64,000 nucleotides of DNA from Burkholderia cepacia ATCC 25416 (lineage in GTDB: Bacteria; Pseudomonadota; Gammaproteobacteria; Burkholderiales; Burkholderiaceae): NCBI RefSeq assembly GCF_001411495.1, contig NZ_CP012982.1, forward strand, positions 1,116,001-1,180,000. Direction: 5' to 3'. A program made the translations under genes and the position numbers. Below are positions 15,562 to 35,350 of this stretch, in pieces. Within the stretch, counting starts at the first letter, position 1. Each line of letters begins with the position of its first letter. Below the pieces are notes generated by a model. It was given only the letters and a program-made list of their open reading frames with translations. It had not been told where the DNA came from and ran no database searches.

Positions 15562-15927
15562 TCAGGATACCTTTCCGAAATCATCCGGCAACGCATAGAT
15601 GCCGCGCTTCGCGACGCACGGAACAGGCGGCGCGATCTGCCGAACGTTCTCCAGTTCCCAGCACACGTATCCGGCACACCATTGCTTGCCTTGCGAGCGG
15701 GCTTCGTCGGGCGTCCAATCGTGCACCCCCACGACATCGACCATCGCGAGCGCGATACCGTCGGGATCCTCCTGCCCGTCCTGTCGCAGGAAGATCGCGT
15801 TCTGCACCAGCACGAGATCGCGCAACGGGATGGCCGGCGGCGCCCACGAGCGGATTTCCACGCGTTTGCGGCCCGCGACGATATCGTCGACGGCCGGGTT
15901 GACGATCGACAGCGCGGATCGCGGCAT
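15562..15927 (-). CDS. ASCH-domain protein
   Basis: The 121-residue protein has an ASCH (PUA-like) fold, thought to bind RNA or modified nucleotides. Family features are an N-terminal strand ending in a Lys-Arg pair (DDIVAGRKRVEIRSW, residues 12-26) and the later segment AMVDVVGVHDWTPDEA. The ATG at 15927 is 9 bases after AAGGA and is preferred over the in-frame ATG at 15945. The frame remains open into an 8-bp tandem repeat upstream. Divergent from the MoaD-like gene. The target is unknown. Confidence 0.8.
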   Translation of the reverse strand: MPRSALSIVNPAVDDIVAGRKRVEIRSWAPPAIPLRDLVLVQNAIFLRQDGQEDPDGIALAMVDVVGVHDWTPDEARSQGKQWCAGYVCWELENVRQIAPPVPCVAKRGIYALPDDFGKVS

Positions 15928-15973
15928 GGCGGGGATTTCCTTCATCGGCAAGTGGAGAGCGTGCGACCGTCGA

Positions 15974-16029
15974 GCGGCACGGCGGCACGGCGGCACGGCG
16001 GCACGGCGGCACGGCGGCACGGCGGCACG
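15974..16029. repeat. seven exact tandem copies of an 8-bp unit (GCGGCACG)
   Basis: Seven head-to-tail copies without a mismatch occupy the divergent promoter region between the ASCH gene and the MoaD-like gene, 47 bp from the ASCH start. An 8-bp unit is not a multiple of three. Copy-number slippage would therefore change promoter spacing, or the reading frame of any N-terminal extension. Confidence 0.95.
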
Positions 16030-16179
16030 GGCAGGATTGTTGCCGATCCGCGTGATCGTGTCGACCGCAACGGATCGGCACGCCGGCGCACGGCGACTAC
16101 GAGACGCCGTCTTTGCGCCCCCGACGGATCGCCTAAACTAAAGACCGTCCCCTCCGCGCGGCTCCTGCCAGCCACCGCC

Positions 16180-17722: not shown

Positions 17723-17913
17723 TTAGCGCTCGACGCCCGCCCCCATCCGCGCCACCGCCGCCCGCGTCTGCGCGATCTCCGCTTCGAGCCAGTCGAGAAA
17801 CGACCTGACCTGCGGCTCGCGCTCACGCCCGGGCCGGCACAGCGCGGCGAAACGCGCGCCGTCGAGCCGCACCGACGGCTCGATCGGTGTCAGTGCGTCA
17901 CGTTCGACATGTT
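17723..17913 (-). pseudogene. 3'-end remnant of a LysR-family regulator (partial duplicate)
   Basis: On the minus strand this encodes only the C-terminal tail of a LysR effector domain (LTPIEPSVRLDGARFAALC, then VRSFLDWLEAEIAQTRAAVA). It is nearly identical to the 3' end of the intact LysR gene ending at 22376: about 170 bp align with only a few substitutions. Similarity stops at about 17913, where unrelated AT-richer DNA begins. The fragment has no start and no DNA-binding domain. It marks the left edge of the inserted vgrG module. Confidence 0.85.
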
Positions 17914-18276
17914 CGTCAACCCGTACTGAACTGTCCAGGTCGACGATCCCTCGACCGATGATCAATCCAGCCCGACAGCACGCGTCAGCGCGTCATCCCC
18001 CTTTCGCTTTCAAGCTCACTGCCTGACAAGAATACGCGGATGCAATCTCATTTTCGGCAGGACGGTGCCGCAAAGATTTTCACGGAACATTTCGAATATG
18101 TCTCATGGACATGAAGCACCGCGCTAGCGATTCTATCGATCTGAAAAATCCTCGGCGTGCCGACCGCACGCTATCGGCATTCACAGCACGGTGTCACGTC
18201 GTATGTCGTCTTTCATGAAACGGGGCGTGACAGGTCGCGCATCGGAGCGTGTTTTGTAGCCCGGAGAATCGTCACG
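17914..18276. other. intergenic region between the LysR remnant and vgrG
   Basis: About 360 bp of lower-GC DNA than its flanks, with no recognised gene. It presumably carries the vgrG promoter. The frame of vgrG is open back to 18157, but the extra 40 residues resemble no VgrG N-terminus. Confidence 0.5.
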
Positions 18277-20523
18277 ATGTCACAAGCATGCCAATTTAGC
18301 TTTACCTTCTCGATTCCAGACACAATGGATTTCGAAGTCGTCGCGTTCCGCCTGGAAGAGAAGTTATCCGAAACTTTCCGGCTCGAACTGGATCTGACGA
18401 GCGCCAATCCATCGGTGGACTTCGGCAAGGTTCTCGATCGCAGCGGCTTGCTTACCATATGGCAAGGCAATCAGCCGGTACGCTACGTTCACGGCGCCGT
18501 TTCGTCGTTTGTTCAAGGAGAGACGGGATTTCGCCGCACCCGCTATTCCGCCGTGGTCGAACCTCGCCTGGCGCGCTTGAAGCTCTCGTCTGATTGGCGC
18601 ATCTTCCAGACCCTGAGCGCGCCGGAGATCGCCACGGCCGTGCTCAAGGCACACCATCAAACGCTGGACTACGAGCAGCGTGTCACCAACGAGCACCTGG
18701 CGCGCGAGTATTGCGTGCAGGCCGGCGACACCGACTACGATTTCATCGAACGCGTTATGCGCGAGGAAGGTTTTTTCTACGCCTTCCAGCACAAGGCCGA
18801 CGGTCATCGGTTGATCCACTGCGATCGCCTGTTTATCTTCGGTCGTCAGCAGGGCGAGCCGGTGCTGTATAACCCCACGCCCGGTGGTGACCAGCCGCGG
18901 CCTTGCCTACGCACGTTCGCCTACACGGAGAACGTGCGTACCTCGCGCCAAGTGCAGCGCGACTACACGTTCAAGAGTCCACGCTATCCGCACGAATACC
19001 CGCGCGAGGGCACAGACCTCGATCACCAGGGCCGCAGCTACGCGCGCTACGACTATCCGGGCCGCTACAAGCACGAGGGCAGTGGCAAGGCGTTTACGCA
19101 GGATCGCCTGCGCGGCCACCGCCGCGATGCACGAATGGCCAGTGTGAGCGGCGACGATGCGCGCCTGCAACCCGGCATCGCGTTCGATCTCATCGGTCAC
19201 CCGCGCGAAGACATGAATCGCGGCTGGCGTCCGGTGAGCATCGTCCATTACGGCAAGCAATACACCAGCCAGGCGGAAGAGAGTGCCGATGCGCAGCAGG
19301 GCACGCATTACCGTTATGACGCCATGCTGGTGCCGGACGATGTCGAGTGGCGTGCCGAGCCGCTGCCGCGCCCGCGCATCGACGGCTTGCAGCCCGCGAC
19401 AGTAGTGGGCCCGGAAGGCGAGGAGATCTACACCGACGCGTACGGTCGGGTGAAAGTGCAGTTCCCGTGGGATCGCGAGGGCAAATACAACGAGCACAGC
19501 TCCTGCTGGATTCAGGTTGCGCAGAATTGGGCCGGTGCGCTCTGGGGACATATGGCGATCCCGCGCATCGGGCAAGAGGTGATCGTCGGCTACCTCGACG
19601 GGGATGCTGACCAGCCACTCGTCCTGTCAAGGGCCTACAACCGCCTACAACTGCCGCCGTACGAATTACCCAGGCACAAGACGCGGATGACGATCAAAAG
19701 CCAGACGCACAAGGGTGAAGGCTTCAACGAACTGCGTTTCGAGGATGAAGCCGGCCAAGAGGAAATTTACGTCCACGCGCAGCGCGATCAGAACATTCAT
19801 GTCAATCACGACGAAACCACGTTCGTCGGACATGACCGCAGCGAGCAGGTCGAACACGACGAAACCGTAGCTATCGGGAACGACCAGAGACTTGCGATAG
19901 GTCGGGACCGTCGTGAACGAGTGGGACAGGACGAAGAACTCACCATCGTACGGCACCGTACGATTCATACCGGCATGAATCACACGGAGACCGCAGGCAA
20001 CAATCGTCACGACACCATTGTGGTCAACCATCGCGTCGATGTCGGCGGCCATGCGGAGCATCTCGTTCACGGCAGCCACCGCCTGGAAGCCGGACAGCGC
20101 ATCGAACGGAGAACCCTTCACTACCAGTTGCAGGCGGCGGAGCGTGTGGTTCTGCAAGGCCCGGGAGGCGGCATTGTCATCGACAGTTCGGGTATCACGC
20201 TCGATGCCGTTGCCATTCGCTTCAAGGGGCCGATACAGCAGCAGACCGGCGGCAAGGGCAACCTGCTCGACCTGTTGTCACGGACTATCAACAACCCCGA
20301 AACCAGGTTCAGCGAGCAGTTTCTCGTCAAGCACGCGCGCACCGGGGAGGTGTTGGCCAATGTCCTGTATTGCGTGGAAACAGCAGAAGGTCAGCGCTTC
20401 GTCGGGCGTACCGATTCGCGAGGGCTGACGGCGCGCATCTATACGGGCCAGCCTGACGTCGCGACGTTGCGTTGGGGAAGAGAGGCGGCTGTGCACTTGC
20501 GCAAACAGAACATCAGCTACTGA
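18277..20523 (+). CDS. vgrG: VgrG, type VI secretion spike protein with C-terminal extension
   Basis: This 748-residue trimeric T6SS tip protein starts SQACQFSFTFSIPDTMDFEV. It has the gp27-like domain (YCVQAGDTDYDFIERVMREEGFFYAF), then the gp5-OB segment (YTDAYGRVKVQFPWDREGKY, then QNWAGALWGHMAIPRIGQEV). A beta-helical needle follows, rich in HDETVAIGNDQRLAIGRD-type repeats (residues about 490-620). The last 90 residues (after GKGNLLDLL) form a compact domain resembling transthyretin-like effector-binding tails of other VgrGs. GGAG precedes the ATG at 18277. It is immediately followed by a candidate effector/immunity pair. No other T6SS structural gene is in the window. Confidence 0.95.
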   Translation: MSQACQFSFTFSIPDTMDFEVVAFRLEEKLSETFRLELDLTSANPSVDFGKVLDRSGLLTIWQGNQPVRYVHGAVSSFVQGETGFRRTRYSAVVEPRLARLKLSSDWRIFQTLSAPEIATAVLKAHHQTLDYEQRVTNEHLAREYCVQAGDTDYDFIERVMREEGFFYAFQHKADGHRLIHCDRLFIFGRQQGEPVLYNPTPGGDQPRPCLRTFAYTENVRTSRQVQRDYTFKSPRYPHEYPREGTDLDHQGRSYARYDYPGRYKHEGSGKAFTQDRLRGHRRDARMASVSGDDARLQPGIAFDLIGHPREDMNRGWRPVSIVHYGKQYTSQAEESADAQQGTHYRYDAMLVPDDVEWRAEPLPRPRIDGLQPATVVGPEGEEIYTDAYGRVKVQFPWDREGKYNEHSSCWIQVAQNWAGALWGHMAIPRIGQEVIVGYLDGDADQPLVLSRAYNRLQLPPYELPRHKTRMTIKSQTHKGEGFNELRFEDEAGQEEIYVHAQRDQNIHVNHDETTFVGHDRSEQVEHDETVAIGNDQRLAIGRDRRERVGQDEELTIVRHRTIHTGMNHTETAGNNRHDTIVVNHRVDVGGHAEHLVHGSHRLEAGQRIERRTLHYQLQAAERVVLQGPGGGIVIDSSGITLDAVAIRFKGPIQQQTGGKGNLLDLLSRTINNPETRFSEQFLVKHARTGEVLANVLYCVETAEGQRFVGRTDSRGLTARIYTGQPDVATLRWGREAAVHLRKQNISY

Positions 20524-20531
20524 GGTCCGTC

Positions 20532-21563
20532 ATGGAACAACAAAAGCAAAGTCGGACCGGCCCGAATAATCCGACGACAGAAGTGGCGGCGATTGCCGAT
20601 CTTGATTATGTAACGGTGGTTGGTTGTTCTAACCCTGCTTTCTATGTGCGTGCCAGGAAGGGCAACAGGATGATGTTCATCAATCAAGGGATACGGCAGT
20701 TGCGCCAATACCCGGAGGCGATGCCGGACTACGCGATACAACGTGTTTTTCTGATTTTCGCAAAGAACTATCCTCGCAAGCTTCTGGACAAGCTTAAGAA
20801 AATTGTAGAGGTTGACTATTGCGCCAGCTATCGAGAACTGACCGATGTTGCCGATCTCGTCACATTCATTGCTGCACGTCGGAGCAAGAAGCGGCTGATC
20901 AAGCAACTTGATATCTTCTCGCACGGCCTCGTGCACAACATCGAATTCGGGTACGACGTCGGCGAGTCTTGGCAGATCCGCTACGGGTTGAATCAGGCGC
21001 GCATGCTGGCGCCATTGGCGTTCGATGATGACGCAACCATATTCTCGTACGCGTGCCGTACGGGGCTTGGACACGACATCGGTACAAAGCTCGATCCGGG
21101 GGAAGATCCCAAATATCAAGAGAGCCTCGCGCAGGTCATGGCTGATGCGGGCGATGTCGAAGTGCGAGCTTTCCCTCGAAGGTCCAACTATGACGAAACC
21201 TATGGGACCCGGGAGGAACTCATCGCGGCACAAAAGACGCAGCCGAAGATTGACGAATACAGGCGCGAGGTTGAAGCCTACCACCGTCAGATGGTCGCCT
21301 ACCGGAAACGGACATTGGCACTGGGAAAAGGACCGATGAATGAAATTCCGGGGGAACCGCCGCCCAAGGCACCCGTTAGACCATACACCGAACGGGAATT
21401 TCAGTTGGCAAAGCATATGGAGGCGCGCCGAATATACGAAGAAGATTCGGATATTGACTTGCCTCTAGACCCGTTGGGTGCCGTGAATCCGGTCAGGTCG
21501 GGTAGTACGCCAGAAGGGTTACCCATGGGGCTTTGCATTTTCAGACCAAAGGATCGCACATGA
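20532..21563 (+). CDS. candidate T6SS effector, possible caspase-like cysteine peptidase (His131/Cys175)
   Basis: The 343-residue protein lacks a signal peptide and starts 8 bp after the vgrG stop; its GC content is lower than that of the flanks. I do not recognise a named family. Two motifs resemble clan CD peptidases: a hydrophobic strand ending in His-Gly (LIKQLDIFSHGL, His131) and, 44 residues later, another strand ending in Ala-Cys-Arg (ATIFSYACRTGLG, Cys175). This is the order seen in caspase, gingipain and MARTX CPD folds. Residues 235-300 are charged, helical and Pro-rich. Its position between vgrG and a coupled exported protein is typical of secreted toxins. The enzymatic role is inference; a non-peptidase toxin is possible. 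Confidence 0.8.
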   Translation: MEQQKQSRTGPNNPTTEVAAIADLDYVTVVGCSNPAFYVRARKGNRMMFINQGIRQLRQYPEAMPDYAIQRVFLIFAKNYPRKLLDKLKKIVEVDYCASYRELTDVADLVTFIAARRSKKRLIKQLDIFSHGLVHNIEFGYDVGESWQIRYGLNQARMLAPLAFDDDATIFSYACRTGLGHDIGTKLDPGEDPKYQESLAQVMADAGDVEVRAFPRRSNYDETYGTREELIAAQKTQPKIDEYRREVEAYHRQMVAYRKRTLALGKGPMNEIPGEPPPKAPVRPYTEREFQLAKHMEARRIYEEDSDIDLPLDPLGAVNPVRSGSTPEGLPMGLCIFRPKDRT

Positions 21564-22381
21564 ACAAAAGAACAGCAGTGTTGATTCCGGTGATATTACT
21601 GGCTGCTTTTTCCTTGAACTGGACGGCAAGCAGAGGAAGCGAAATGAACGAAAAAATCATGATGCGAACATCTGAGGACGATCCGCCATTTGACGCCACC
21701 CATTGGTTTTCCAACGGCATGTATCAACGCATTCCTCTCAAGAAAGAGGACAAGATCTACTATCCGGCGGAGACACACTATAACGAAATATTAATGCGTC
21801 GAATATCCCCACCCCCATTCACCGATGAGCAGGTTGAGAGTCTCCAAATCAACATCGTCATGGCCCTCAAAGGTGAAATTTTCCCCGCTGACTTTCCTCC
21901 GAAAGTCCCTCCCTCGGTTGAGGACATCGGTTTGGGTTCCGGTTTCGATCCCAGGCCGCAAATCGTATATATCAGTAGTAGATTCAACGACTATGTGGGC
22001 GCCGAGTCTAAATTTCCGATCGATAACTACATCTTCTACACCTTGCTGGAGGGTAAGCGCTTTTTCGTTTACATCAGGCGAAATGGTGAGACTGGAGAGA
22101 TTTTTCGTACATCCCGCGTACGCAGCAGCCATATCCCCTACGACGAAGAAGAGCGTCGGTTCCAGTCGTTGCAATCCAAAGCGGATCTCCAGTCCAGGCT
22201 GGACGAGCCCGGCTGGAAACAGCGTTCCGGCGCACTCTGCCCGTGGCCCGGCGCATGGGAATGCCTGGAGTTTCCTGTAGGCAAGCAGACGTTTGCTCAT
22301 AACATGCCGTTTCCAAAGATCAATGCGCAGGATGTAACGTGGCGCTTCGTTCCACCCACACATAGAGCCCGGCTTTCATAG
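21560..22381 (+). CDS. candidate periplasmic immunity protein for the adjacent T6SS effector
   Basis: This 273-residue protein has an N-terminal hydrophobic segment (VLIPVILLAAFSLNW) serving as a signal or anchor, so the mature part is periplasmic. Its ATG overlaps the effector stop by 4 bp (ATGA), giving translational coupling as expected for toxin-antidote pairs. No family is recognised. Two Cys near residue 230 (ALCPWPGAWECLEF) could form a disulfide. GC content is low, like the effector. Periplasmic location implies that the effector acts in the periplasm. The 3' end overlaps the convergent LysR stop by 6 bp. Confidence 0.75.
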   Translation: MNKRTAVLIPVILLAAFSLNWTASRGSEMNEKIMMRTSEDDPPFDATHWFSNGMYQRIPLKKEDKIYYPAETHYNEILMRRISPPPFTDEQVESLQINIVMALKGEIFPADFPPKVPPSVEDIGLGSGFDPRPQIVYISSRFNDYVGAESKFPIDNYIFYTLLEGKRFFVYIRRNGETGEIFRTSRVRSSHIPYDEEERRFQSLQSKADLQSRLDEPGWKQRSGALCPWPGAWECLEFPVGKQTFAHNMPFPKINAQDVTWRFVPPTHRARLS

Positions 22382-23296
22382 TCCAGCCATCCGCGCCACC
22401 GCCACCCGCGTCTGCGCGATCTCCGCTTCGAGCCAGTCGAGAAACGACCTGACCTGCGGCTCGCGCTCACGCCCGGGCCGGCACAGCGCGACGAAACGCG
22501 CGCCGTCGAGCCGCACCGACGGCTCGATCGGCGTCAGTGCCCCGTGTGCGACATGCTCGGCAGCCAGCACCGAGCTGAGCAACGCGATGCCCTGCCCGTG
22601 CAGCACGGCCTGCAACGCGTAATGCTCGTCGTCGTAATGGCGAAACACCGCGCGTTCGAGCCACGTGTCGCGGCCTGCCGCACGGCACCACGACGCCCAG
22701 TCGACCGACACCGGCAACGGCGTATCCCACACGGTCTCGATCAGGTCGAGCGGCTCGTCCGTGCGGTGCGCGTCGAACCCGGCGGCCGCATAGGCGCCGA
22801 AATACTCGTCGATCAGCGCAATCTCGTGCAGCGCCGGAAACGTGCGCGACGTTGCGCGAATCGCAAGATCGATCCGCGCGTCGCGTTCGAGATCGGCGAG
22901 CGTGTTGCCGGTTTCGACCTTGATGTGCAGTTGCGGATCGATGCGACGAAACCGCCCGAGACGCGGAATCAGCCACATCGCGGCGAATGCGGGCGTGGTG
23001 GTCAGCACGAGCGTGCGCTCGCCGGTCGCTTCCGGCCGCACCGCATCGAGCCCGCGGCTCAGCGCCAGCAATGCATCGTGACTCGCGCGAAACAGTTGCT
23101 CGCCCTCCTCCGTGAGCCGCACGCCGCTCGCGCCGCGCTCGAACAGCAGCACGCCGAGCCGGCTTTCGAGCGACTTGATCTGATGCGACACGGCGGCCGG
23201 CGTCACGGACAGCTCGTCCGCGGCAGCCTTGAACGCGCCAAGCCGCGCCGACGCTTCGAATACACGCAATGCGGTCAGGGGAAGTTTCGAGAACAC
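22376..23296 (-). CDS. LysR-family transcriptional regulator (GcvA-like), divergent from the PACE pump gene
   Basis: This 306-residue regulator has an N-terminal winged HTH (LTALRVFEASARLGAFKAAA, then LSVTPAAVSHQIKSLESRLG) and a periplasmic-binding-like effector domain (about 90-300). The N-terminus matches the GcvA/AmpR subgroup. It is divergent from the PACE efflux gene, with about 150 bp between starts, so it probably regulates that gene. Its last 55 codons are duplicated at 17723-17913. The C-terminal residues differ between the copies (ARMAGL here, ARMGAGVER there). Confidence 0.92.
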   Translation of the reverse strand: MFSKLPLTALRVFEASARLGAFKAAADELSVTPAAVSHQIKSLESRLGVLLFERGASGVRLTEEGEQLFRASHDALLALSRGLDAVRPEATGERTLVLTTTPAFAAMWLIPRLGRFRRIDPQLHIKVETGNTLADLERDARIDLAIRATSRTFPALHEIALIDEYFGAYAAAGFDAHRTDEPLDLIETVWDTPLPVSVDWASWCRAAGRDTWLERAVFRHYDDEHYALQAVLHGQGIALLSSVLAAEHVAHGALTPIEPSVRLDGARFVALCRPGREREPQVRSFLDWLEAEIAQTRVAVARMAGL

Positions 23297-23443: not shown

Positions 23444-23869
23444 GTGCAAGGCCTATCGCGCAGGATCACGCAGGCGGTGCTCTACGAAGCGATCGCGATT
23501 TCCTGCATCTCGCCCGTGATCGCGGCGCTCTTCAAGCAGGGCCTCGTCTATTCGGGCGCGCTGTCGGCGACGATGTCGGCGATCGCGATGCTGTGGAACA
23601 TGATCTTCAACGCGCTGTTCGAGCGCTGGGAAGCGTCGCGCCGGCAGCCGGCACGCACGCTCGGGCGGCGGATCCTGCACGCCACCGGATTCGAAGGCGG
23701 GCTCATCTTCATCCTGGTGCCCGTCGTGTCGTGGTGGCTCGACATCTCGTGGTTCGACGCGTTCGTCGTCGACATCGGGCTGTTTGCGTTCTTCTTCTGT
23801 TACGCGTTCGCCTTCCAGTGGGCGTTCGATCGCGTGTTCGACGTGCCCGCGGCGACCAAGGGGGAATGA
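23444..23869 (+). CDS. PACE-family multidrug/biguanide efflux transporter
   Basis: This inner-membrane pump of about 141 residues has four TM helices in two bacterial transmembrane pair (BTP) repeats. The AceI-type signatures are QAVLYEAIAI (membrane-embedded Glu), MLWNMIFNALFERWE, HATGFEGGLIFILVPV and FFCYAFAFQWAFDRVFD. Family members export chlorhexidine, acriflavine and short diamines by proton antiport. The GTG at 23444 is chosen because GGAG precedes it by 7 bases and the length then matches AceI; an ATG at 23420 in the same frame is the alternative. The divergent LysR gene is the likely activator. Confidence 0.9.
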   Translation: MQGLSRRITQAVLYEAIAISCISPVIAALFKQGLVYSGALSATMSAIAMLWNMIFNALFERWEASRRQPARTLGRRILHATGFEGGLIFILVPVVSWWLDISWFDAFVVDIGLFAFFFCYAFAFQWAFDRVFDVPAATKGE

Positions 23870-24092
23870 AACGAGTGCCCGGTAATCAAGTAGTCGAAAT
23901 CGACATCAATCGGTGCGTTTATTCCCATTTCAAAACGCACCCCGTTTCATTTTTTCGACATTCAAACAATACCGCCACCAGCATTCACAAAACCAAAACA
24001 ACCCTAGGGTTTACGTTACATTGTCCCTCCGCAAATTCGAATGCTAATGTTGTCTGACGATTAACAGAAAGCAATCATTCACACCCACCCCA
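23870..24092. other. AT-rich intergenic region before the peptide locus
   Basis: About 220 bp without a recognisable gene and with clearly lower GC than the surrounding DNA. It contains A/T tracts and several direct CAAAACA-like stretches. It leads into the promoter of the 42-codon gene. Confidence 0.6.
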
Positions 24093-24098
24093 TATAAT
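24093..24098 (+). promoter_or_regulatory. -10 element (TATAAT) of the small-peptide gene
   Basis: A perfect TATAAT lies about 100 bp upstream of the peptide start codon. The -35 region is poorly conserved. It predicts a 5' untranslated leader of about 95 bases carrying one hairpin. Confidence 0.55.
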
Positions 24099-24134
24099 CG
24101 GCGCAACCCCATGCGCCCACTCAATCGCTAAATC

Positions 24135-24156
24135 CGCCCTCGAATTTTCGGGGGCG
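24135..24156 (+). repeat. hairpin in the leader of the peptide gene
   Basis: CGCCCTCG pairs with CGGGGGCG (one G-U pair) around a 6-base AATTTT loop, 44 bases upstream of the peptide start. A T-rich run does not follow directly. It may be a leader stability or regulatory element. Confidence 0.45.
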
Positions 24157-24199
24157 ATTTGCGATGTTCGCAGTTCAATTCCTAAACAAGGAAATCATC

Positions 24200-24328
24200 A
24201 TGAACGAAAATCAGGAAAAGCAGGATCTCCCGCTGATCGAATGGATGCAGGAAGATCAGCATGAAGACTGGGTCGAGATGATGAAGGACAGCGCAGTCAT
24301 TCCATTCGCAACGGCTCTGTGGGCCTAA
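24200..24328 (+). CDS. 42-residue acidic peptide, candidate precursor or carrier peptide
   Basis: The peptide has 42 codons after a good ribosome-binding site (AAGGAAA, 6 bases before ATG). It is strongly acidic in its first 30 residues (MNENQEKQDLPLIEW, then MQEDQHEDWVEMMKD) and ends in a neutral hydrophobic tail SAVIPFATALWA. It has no Cys and no signal peptide. It has its own -10 box upstream and an intrinsic terminator 17 bases after the stop. The acidic leader plus short hydrophobic core, followed by an enzyme gene, is the layout of RiPP precursors or small carrier peptides. I recognise no known precursor class. It could instead be an expressed regulatory leader peptide. Confidence 0.65.
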   Translation: MNENQEKQDLPLIEWMQEDQHEDWVEMMKDSAVIPFATALWA

Positions 24329-24344
24329 GCAGGCAGCCCGAACG

Positions 24345-24375
24345 ATGGCGGATCGCAATGACCCGCCATTTTTTT
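24345..24375 (+). terminator. intrinsic terminator between the peptide gene and the M29-like gene
   Basis: ATGGCGG and CCGCCAT form a perfect 7-bp stem with an 11-base loop, followed by seven T. It lies 17 bases after the peptide stop and 32 bases before the next start. Partial read-through would give far more peptide mRNA than enzyme mRNA. Confidence 0.85.
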
Positions 24376-24406
24376 GATCCAGAAACTGGATACCCCGGAG
24401 ATAATC

Positions 24407-25363
24407 ATGGAAAAAAGTGTCGAAAATTTCTTTTCGTGTGTCCGCGGTCATCCAGCCATGGTGCAGAAACATTCAGCCGGCGCCAACATCCTGGTCGGCT
24501 CGGATCAAAGCCAGAGAAATACCGCGCAATCGATTATCCGGCACTGCCCGAAAAAACTCGAATATTCGTTCACCTACGTCGAGCTTGACACGGAAAATCA
24601 CGAACAGGTCATAAAGGAAATCGACCGGTGTGACATGTTCATCTTCATGTACGACTCGTCCATACGTTCCGACATCAACCCGCATGGGCCGTCGTTCATC
24701 CCGCCCCTCAAGCCGAAAATGGCCGAGCACTGGAAGAAGTCGGTATTGCTGCGGGAATACGGCGAATTCTTCAAGGAGGCTTTTTCCGAGAGCATCGACG
24801 ACATTGCCGCCCGCAACGAACGCATCATTGCGGCGGCACAACGCGCTCGACGCGTGCAATTTCACGACGGCTTCGGTGGTTCGCTGCATGGAACGCTGGA
24901 TCAGACATGGAAAAGCCTCGATGGCCGCAACCACTACGACCTGATGCCCGGCGAAGTGGCGACCCGCGTACTCGACCTGACCGGAAGCGTCTTGTTCGGC
25001 GGCACCTTCCTGAGCACGGTGCCCTTTGCCATCAAGTACGGTGTCATCGACCCGATATTGAAGATCGGGATCGAGCGGAGCCATGTGGTCAGCGTCGAAT
25101 CGGCCAATCGACAGCTCGAGGACGATTTCAGGTTGTATCTCGACAAATGCGCGGGAAACAGGATCGTCGAGGAGTTCGGGATCGGGACGAACCTGAACGT
25201 CAGGCTGCATGGACGAAATGCAAGTTTCGAAGAACGCCATCCCGGGTTGCACCTTGGCCTCGGCGGCGGTGAACGCGGCAGCCATCATCTGGATCTGGTG
25301 TTTTCGTCCGGAAAGATCCTGTTCGACGACACCGTCATCTTCGACGGCGCATTCCGTGTGTAG
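24407..25363 (+). CDS. M29 (aminopeptidase T)-like metallopeptidase-related protein
   Basis: The protein has 318 residues without a signal peptide; GGAG lies 6 bases before the ATG. The C-terminal half follows the M29 pattern. It includes DLMPGEVATRV (Glu183), NRIVEEFGIGTNLN (Glu255/256), GLHLGLGGGERGSHHLD (His282, His294, Asp296) and a final KILFDDTVIFDGAF strand. These correspond to the dimetal ligands of aminopeptidase T. The Tyr expected about seven residues after the first His is not present, so catalysis may differ. The N-terminal half is divergent from classical M29 enzymes. Position after the 42-residue peptide suggests that it processes or modifies it (inference). Confidence 0.8.
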   Translation: MEKSVENFFSCVRGHPAMVQKHSAGANILVGSDQSQRNTAQSIIRHCPKKLEYSFTYVELDTENHEQVIKEIDRCDMFIFMYDSSIRSDINPHGPSFIPPLKPKMAEHWKKSVLLREYGEFFKEAFSESIDDIAARNERIIAAAQRARRVQFHDGFGGSLHGTLDQTWKSLDGRNHYDLMPGEVATRVLDLTGSVLFGGTFLSTVPFAIKYGVIDPILKIGIERSHVVSVESANRQLEDDFRLYLDKCAGNRIVEEFGIGTNLNVRLHGRNASFEERHPGLHLGLGGGERGSHHLDLVFSSGKILFDDTVIFDGAFRV

Positions 25364-25498
25364 CCCCTGCGACGACACGGCCGGCATCGACGCCCCGGCG
25401 AGGTGCCGGCATCGTGACGCCCACCTCCGGCACCCTGCTCGCGCCGGTTCCCGTTGCGCCCGCCCCGCACGGTGACCGCGCCGGCCGGAACCGCACTC

Positions 25499-26917
25499 AT
25501 GGTCGACCTCGAACAGCAACTGCATGCCGCGCAGACGCAATACGCCGGCGATTCACGTGATCCCGCGATCCTGCATCGGATCTGCGAACTGTTGACGGCC
25601 CTCCGGCGAGAGGAGGAAATGCTCCCCTGGGCCGATCTGGCGCTGGCGCTCGACCCGCACGACGCCGTCTCCATGACACGGCGTGCCGATGCGCTCTACC
25701 TGCTGGGCCGCTACGTCGAAGCCGCCGAAGCCTGGAAACGCGATCCGTCGCGGCACAGCCGGCCCGAACTCCACCGCTTGCGACTGGGCATGAGCCTGAT
25801 GATGGCCGGCGATCTCGCGCAGGCCATCGCGTTGCTCGACGAAGCCTTCCGGATGGCGGCAACCGGTCCTGCCGAGATGAGCGCATCGATCGGATTCGCG
25901 ATGGGAGAAGCGATGCTCAAGGCGGGCGATCCGCGCGGCTTCGCCTATTGGCGAATGCGTGACGACGTTCCGCGACTGTCCGCCAATTACCGCCCGGTCG
26001 ACCTCCCGACATGGGACGGCGAATCGGATGTGCGCGGCAGGCGTGTCCTGATCACGCATGAACACGGCTTCGGCGACAACTTTCTCCTCTCGGCCTGCGT
26101 GGCCGACTGGCTGGACGAAGGCGCGCACGTCATGCTCACCTGCCATCCGCAGAGCCACGCGCTCATGCAGGCGTCACTGCCGCGGTGCGAGGTCGTCGCC
26201 GCGCCCAATCCGGTGCAGTTTCATGCGCCGTTGCCCGATGAACTGCAGGCACGCGTCGACAGTTTCGCGCCGGACCTGCATGCCTCGCTGCTTCATTTGC
26301 CGATGCTGAAAGCCCGGCGGACACGCCTGCCGGAACGATGGTTCGCGCCCTACATCAAGACGCCGCCGCACAAGCAGCGGATCGCTGCCGAATGGGCCGC
26401 GCAAGTGCGCGAGCAACATCCGGGCAAGAAGCTGATCGGACTGTTCTGGGATTGCGTCCAACGGCATTGGCCCGAAAAAGGCGCCATCGTCAGGTGCTGG
26501 GCCAGCCGCCGCAGCCTGCCGCTCGATGCGATCGACGCGATCGTGGCACACCCCGCCATTGCGGAAAGCATGCATTTCGTGAATCTGCATCACCCCGCTG
26601 CCGCGGCGCTGGCGGGCACGCCGGCCGGCAATGTTAGTCAGTACCGGCCCGGGATTCGGGATTTCGGCGACACGGCTGCATGCATGGCCCAACTGGATGC
26701 CGTGGTCGCGGTCGATTCGGGCGTCGCCAACCTCGCGGCCATGATGGGGATGCGGACTTGCGTACCGACCCACGTCTGTGGCGACTGGCGCTGGGGCGTC
26801 GAGGGTACCGCGAGCCCCTGGATCGCGCATGCGAACGCCGTGCGGCAAACCCGCGAAGGCGACTGGAGCGACGTGATTCGACGCATCAACGCGTGGCTCA
26901 TGCAAGTCTTGGCCTGA
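25499..26917 (+). CDS. TPR protein with C-terminal GT9/heptosyltransferase-like domain
   Basis: The protein has 472 residues. Residues about 1-170 are TPR-like helical hairpins (ILHRICELLTALRREEEMLP, WADLALALDPHDAVSMTRRA). From about 180 the sequence turns into a GT-B fold of the ADP-heptose/GT9 type: VLITHEHGFGDNFLLSACV (N-terminal nucleotide-binding loop) and, near the end, LDAVVAVDSGVANLAAMMG and CGDWRWGVEG. The C-terminal half of the FkbM protein at 55306 has the same layout. TPR-GT proteins often glycosylate proteins. It is the third gene of the peptide locus, 135 bp after the M29-like gene. The substrate is unknown. Confidence 0.8.
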   Translation: MVDLEQQLHAAQTQYAGDSRDPAILHRICELLTALRREEEMLPWADLALALDPHDAVSMTRRADALYLLGRYVEAAEAWKRDPSRHSRPELHRLRLGMSLMMAGDLAQAIALLDEAFRMAATGPAEMSASIGFAMGEAMLKAGDPRGFAYWRMRDDVPRLSANYRPVDLPTWDGESDVRGRRVLITHEHGFGDNFLLSACVADWLDEGAHVMLTCHPQSHALMQASLPRCEVVAAPNPVQFHAPLPDELQARVDSFAPDLHASLLHLPMLKARRTRLPERWFAPYIKTPPHKQRIAAEWAAQVREQHPGKKLIGLFWDCVQRHWPEKGAIVRCWASRRSLPLDAIDAIVAHPAIAESMHFVNLHHPAAAALAGTPAGNVSQYRPGIRDFGDTAACMAQLDAVVAVDSGVANLAAMMGMRTCVPTHVCGDWRWGVEGTASPWIAHANAVRQTREGDWSDVIRRINAWLMQVLA

Positions 26918-27032
26918 TGCCTGCTCACGCCGGACAGGCATGCCGACGCCCCCGGCTACCGGAATCTTCCCGGAACGGGGGCGCGAATCCGTCAAGCCGC
27001 TTGCGGGCCGGGCGAACGCCCGGCCGCGTCGC

Positions 27033-31855: not shown

Positions 31856-35346
<3,491 letters not shown>

Positions 35347-35350
<4 letters not shown>

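Follow-up and report, generated by a model that had tools for sequence, protein, structure and literature searches.

What does Burkholderia cepacia ATCC 25416 make from a 42-codon gene that stands directly before a gene for a peptidase-like protein? The gene lies in a stretch of 64,000 nucleotides of contig NZ_CP012982.1 (positions 1,116,001 to 1,180,000 of the forward strand), called the window below. It opens a cassette of three co-directional genes, for the peptide, a 318-residue protein resembling M29 aminopeptidases and a 472-residue protein that joins a tetratricopeptide repeat (TPR) half to a glycosyltransferase half (TPR-GT). The answer that we consider probable is a modified ribosomal peptide, whose precursor is handled by a metal protein of the type of CgnB from crocagin biosynthesis and, here, probably O-glycosylated. 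The locus looks like a minimal, so far unstudied modified-peptide system found in many Burkholderia, Pseudomonas and their relatives, with a sugar-transferase gene at this site. The original prediction, made from the letters alone, had proposed that the M29-like protein modifies or trims the peptide, or uses it as a carrier, in a class without known example; the conserved pairing and the purifying selection on the peptide lend it partial support, and the class has turned out to be a known one.

The peptide gene (24200..24328, + strand) is a real gene under protein-level selection. It encodes the acidic N-terminal part and the hydrophobic tail (SAVIPFATALWA) that had been recognised from the reading frame. 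Residues 1-28 contain nine Asp or Glu and one Lys or Arg, giving an acidic leader, and the near-invariant C-terminal core of the window peptide reads AVIPFATALWA. Over the last 38 codons, the eight window-type loci vary at 31 third, 13 first and 4 second positions, and the ratio of non-synonymous to synonymous change (dN/dS) is 0.059, a rough value with synonymous sites near saturation (pS 0.68). The ratio is 0.163 for a second Burkholderia type (27 loci) and 0.082 for a Pseudomonas type (37 loci), so that selection is purifying in all three groups. A profile search brought up 76 peptide proteins, from Serratia, Chania, Klebsiella, Vibrio, Photorhabdus, Chromobacterium, Paraburkholderia, Piscirickettsia and Pseudomonas among others, of which 74 carry the core (one with Pro changed to Ala) and two are truncated before it. 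W15, H21, M27, M28, A32, V33, P35, F36, T38, A39 and W41 are invariant in a 14-row alignment, and some of these positions differ in other members of the family. The tail Trp is preceded by Leu or Met and followed by A, P, L, AV, AL, PV, PL, PF, PM, PS or SV.

The peptide is tied to one partner. Among 109 distinct M29-like proteins in the fetched loci, the remaining Burkholderia and strong Pseudomonas places included, 104 are preceded on their own strand, at a distance of about 27-93 bp, by a core-bearing peptide; the distances are approximate as starts were placed by profile. Small acidic reading frames with a similar tail therefore do adjoin distant M29-like homologues, the check that had been proposed for this locus. 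The positives consist of eight window-type, 49 second-type Burkholderia, 46 Pseudomonas-type and one Piscirickettsia-like protein; the peptide accompanies all 54 full-length copies in the genus of the window and all 46 strong Pseudomonas-type copies. Five copies lack it. L044 is full-length and a true exception, L045 and L090 are distant relatives (E about 1e-32), L150 is a contig fragment and L097 is a decayed copy. At this last place (L097/L098, G753:C9:42471-43296) a frame-broken CgnB-like gene with no recognisable peptide stands in a genome of 1.7 Mb. The minimal unit is the peptide plus the CgnB-like protein, and the cassette includes no gene for an exporter. The locus thus shows the general features of ribosomally synthesized and post-translationally modified peptides (RiPPs), a short precursor gene that is selected and tied to a modifying or binding protein.

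At least one CgnB-like copy occurs in 51 of 65 Burkholderia genomes, the window's own counted. The window type (at least 90% identity) was found in five of the 65, the second type (45-50% identity) in 50, one of them as a fragment, and both types in four. The window genome has one other copy, 274 kb away, with its own peptide and intact ligands. In the sample of the genus of G350, taken here to be Pseudomonas on the strength of named peptides with that sequence type, 44 of 119 genomes have a copy. The wider samples, with their own genome or centre counted, gave 8 of 398 for the phylum, 3 of 369 for the class and 1 of 197 for the order of G360.

Three features place the partner protein (24407..25363, + strand) with the peptide-binding proteins CgnB and CgnE of crocagin biosynthesis: its fold, the Pfam label that about half of its homologues carry, and six metal ligands. 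Its fold matches CgnB (6zsv) and CgnE (6zsu), and PF26231, presumably the model of the crocagin CgnE/B domain, is found on 50 of 105 homologues; five homologues carry a UniRef name of crocagin biosynthetic protein CgnE/B domain, in part incomplete. The metal-ligand pattern that had been read from the sequence (E183, E256, H282, H294 and D296) is, together with E276, unchanged in 105 of 105 homologues. The last five of the six ligands in chain order align, with one constant numbering offset and at a weak profile E of 0.39, with E252, E274, H280, H291 and D293, the published zinc ligands of CgnB (PMC10070186). The window-type proteins form a single clade of 13 rows with 100/100 support, which includes members known as proteins alone, for which the TPR-GT context was not seen.

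The same protein has the M29 fold, with NicX as its closest match, and its identity to NicX and to the M29 aminopeptidases PepS, AmpT and AmpS is 11-16%. NicX has fewer metal ligands. From these proteins the window protein differs in having a small peptide gene as its partner and no Peptidase_M29 match. A true metallopeptidase would free a C-terminal signal peptide, PFATALWA or PFGTALWPV, and the two-gene forms would then need no other chemistry. We regard this as unlikely: the Peptidase_M29 Pfam profile matches none of four proteins, the window's included, up to an E of 10 (HMMER filters drop most matches of this weakness), and the cassette carries along no exporter for a freed signal, the PACE efflux-transporter gene beside it being part of the older flank. 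In the passages of the crocagin report concerned, CgnB and CgnE bind the precursor CgnA, CgnE chiefly through its core, and aminopeptidase activity was observed for neither (PMC10070186). Since these published relatives bind a precursor and no such activity was seen with them, the analogy favours binding or modification over simple trimming.

Is the locus then a crocagin locus? It shares with that of Chondromyces crocatus (CgnA with CgnB/CgnE) a short precursor free of Cys, encoded next to an M29-fold protein that has intact CgnB-type ligands, and a Trp at or near the C-terminus of the peptide; glycosyltransferases also occur in crocagin-like clusters (PMC10070186). The view in the original prediction, that M29-like enzymes and Cys-free precursors are not known to occur together in any class, is therefore to be withdrawn. 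The two loci differ in several respects, as far as the text passages of that source describe crocagin. Its pathway has two neighbouring homologues, the second with a broken metal site, whereas the window has a single CgnB-like copy and no degenerate CgnE partner; its leader is rich in Lys and Arg, unlike the acidic leader here; and its core is Tyr-Trp, which the tetracycle needs. A C-terminal Tyr-Trp core is absent from the peptides examined, which have Leu or Met before the Trp and one or two residues after it. The crocagin genes are neighboured by oxygenase, hydrolase and methyltransferase genes, the window cassette by transport genes, and no CgnC-like 2OG-Fe(II) dioxygenase was found in the three cassette genes and their PACE and ABC-transport flanks. 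The locus is not a crocagin locus, because it has one CgnB-like copy, no Tyr-Trp core and an acidic leader. In general terms the class is nevertheless known: single-copy CgnB/CgnE homologues with putative precursors predicted by RiPPER were reported in 2023, and as at the window locus they have an intact metal site and a precursor nearby and occur in beta- and gammaproteobacteria among others (PMC10070186). The window locus is probably a member of this set. Neither the family of PF[GA]TA[LM]W peptides nor the two-gene module nor the cassette with a TPR-GT is described in the text passages on the set, and none of the three was found in the published literature, supplementary data aside.

The third gene (25499..26917, + strand) sets the window type apart. 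All 8 window-type loci, which come from Burkholderia, Paraburkholderia and two Enterobacterales, have a TPR-GT gene after the CgnB-like gene; none of the 66 other loci with 900 bp or more of downstream sequence has one. The cassette proteins form a single clade with 100/100 support, apart from six stand-alone relatives. One of these relatives (L115:4915-11890) is part of a row of genes on one strand that also encodes a YadA-type trimeric autotransporter (adhesin), an OmpA-family protein and an FkbM methyltransferase, which suggests an adhesin glycosylation locus. The structural model of the cassette protein (pLDDT 92.3) has a TPR half and a GT9-like half of the GT-B fold, and in a whole-chain Foldseek search SPY, a GT9 protein and OGTs come first. 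Its first description as a TPR-GT9-like protein thus holds for the TPR half and the GT9-type GT-B fold; the GT9 Pfam profile stays below its curated cut-off (12.0 bits against 22).

The peptides vary with the presence of this gene. Ser or Thr occupies one position in 19 of 19 peptides of the PFAT (window) type and in 4 of 55 of the others (PFGT type), 40 of which have Asp there, and in the loci seen the TPR-GT strictly co-occurs with the Ser/Thr form. From this pattern of residues Ser31 would be the likely sugar acceptor, with Thr38 as the alternative. The TPR-plus-GT architecture is that of the protein O-glycosyltransferases FlmG, OGT and SPY, and in Caulobacter the TPR half of FlmG alone binds the flagellins that FlmG glycosylates (PMC7591256). 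The cassette protein differs from these and from the GT9 heptosyltransferases, TibC included, in its proposed target, a peptide of 42 residues. In one Enterobacterales locus, of strain CwR94 (L007:8514-9434), an oxygenase-like gene (2OG-Fe(II), below the Pfam cut-off) lies immediately 3' of the TPR-GT gene; this is the only four-gene form seen, and a 34% relative of that gene in the window genome sits on another contig.

These additions also bear on whether the peptide might be a bound small partner (subunit, inhibitor or chaperone) of an M29-like enzyme that acts on another molecule, in the boldest form by NicX-like ring cleavage. Conservation of most of the peptide, its one fixed partner and NicX as the closest fold would suit such a role. 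Precursor binding in the CgnB family, as described in part of the crocagin report (PMC10070186), points the other way, and the joining of the cassette by the TPR-GT, and in L007 by the oxygenase-like gene, fits peptide tailoring better; we think the partner role quite improbable.

In the modified-peptide pathway that we prefer, the acidic part would serve as the leader and the near-invariant C-terminal stretch as the core of the precursor. By analogy with crocagin, the CgnB-like protein would bind this precursor, and its two-metal site would most likely perform or enable a reaction at or close to the Pro-Phe-(Gly/Ala)-Thr-Ala-(Leu/Met)-Trp tail. For CgnB, a metal-assisted elimination following hydroxylation has been proposed, and the crocagin pathway uses an oxygenase, according to passages of the same source (PMC10070186); among the relatives here an oxygenase-like gene is found in L007 alone, so that the two-gene form would rely on another reaction at the metal site, on an unlinked oxygenase or on binding only. 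In the window clade the TPR half of the TPR-GT probably recognises the peptide, and a sugar would be added to Ser31 (or Thr38). We infer, rather than show, that the peptide is bound, how it is modified, that it is glycosylated and where, that a product is released and exported, and what role this product has. The natural two-gene form, common in tractable Pseudomonas, would make it possible to study directly how one CgnB-type protein acts on one peptide.

The Pseudomonas loci raise the question of what such a product is for. In six fetched neighbourhoods of this type, four (L084, L085, L087 and L088) have five neighbours in common. As identified in L084 and L085, these encode an MFS protein, an RF-1-domain protein and an amino-acid permease to one side of the pair, and a pseudouridine synthase and ScpB to the other. 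L086 has a different frame called where the synthase is expected; of the five, L089 has the permease and ScpB clusters only. The close conservation of the peptide from genus to genus would fit a common physiological product better than a weapon. It is possible, and we put it forward tentatively, that the unit is a one-enzyme RiPP-type module, in which one metal-dependent protein of the CgnB family alone converts the near-invariant peptide into a conserved, peptide-derived signal or cofactor in Burkholderia and Pseudomonas. It would then be an ordinary physiological pair among Pseudomonas housekeeping genes, not an antibiotic cluster, and the window would hold an additional, mobile form, with glycosylation of its product by the TPR-GT as an extra step.

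The window version appears as an acquired cassette (23864..27026) between the PACE efflux-transporter gene and an OpuAC-type (glycine-betaine-type) ABC binding-protein gene. Eight of 60 genus genomes without the window type were checked for the empty site. In three of them (L151, L152 and L155) the flanking genes are only 125, 125 and 142 bp apart, and the match to the window runs to 23862/23863 and resumes at 27027/27030; the remaining five match on the binding-protein side only. As the flanks are nearly contiguous in these three genomes, the segment of about 3.2 kb is an island. The G+C content is 0.50 in the peptide gene and 0.56 in the CgnB-like gene, far under the 0.66 of the window, and 0.66 in the TPR-GT gene. 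In the named Burkholderia loci L003-L005 the M29-like protein is 90-94% identical to that of the window.

The nucleic-acid elements of the locus bring up the last alternative, that the small reading frame is a regulatory leader (a ribosome-arrest or attenuator peptide) acting on the downstream gene through an intergenic stem-loop. The frame is short with a Trp close to its stop codon, and in the window a stem-loop followed by a T-run (24344..24370, + strand) separates the two genes. The conserved residues, however, run from W15 through W41, in seven of nine Pseudomonas-type loci shown the stem is not followed by five consecutive T, and the homologous family is known, from parts of the crocagin report, to bind its neighbour peptide; we judge a regulatory leader very improbable. 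The stem itself was seen, by eye, in 24 of 24 folded loci, its z score over 30 loci has a median of -2.1, and a terminator scan did not list it. It may be a partial terminator or a stabiliser of the 3' end. Because a stem-loop follows the peptide gene in every folded locus, the precursor may be produced in excess over the enzyme; this idea is weakened by z below -2 in only 16 of the 30 loci and by weak covariation. A minor RNA stem-loop 5' of the peptide gene (24135..24156, + strand; z -4.1 for 24130-24199) is only partly retained in L004 and L005. The perfect TATAAT hexamer (24093..24098, + strand), noted at first, is probably not significant: no sigma-70-type site was found, and the hexamer is not conserved in L003-L005.

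Elsewhere in the window, a direct repeat of 191 nt (92% identical) occurs at 17743-17933 and 22387-22577, the second copy within an intact LysR-family gene (22376-23296). The repeats bracket a VgrG-type gene (18157-20523) and the two genes after it (20472-21563 and 21533-22381), for which Pfam gave no clear family. The arrangement resembles a type VI secretion cargo module whose insertion duplicated the end of the LysR gene. A perfect 8-bp tandem repeat of 7.1 copies (GCGGCACG; 15974-16030) extends across the start of an ASCH-domain reading frame (15562-16020, minus strand) and is a possible phase-variable switch. A perfect 6-bp repeat of 11.3 copies (32327-32394) encodes an Ala-Pro stretch of a DUF2339 membrane protein (31856-35350).
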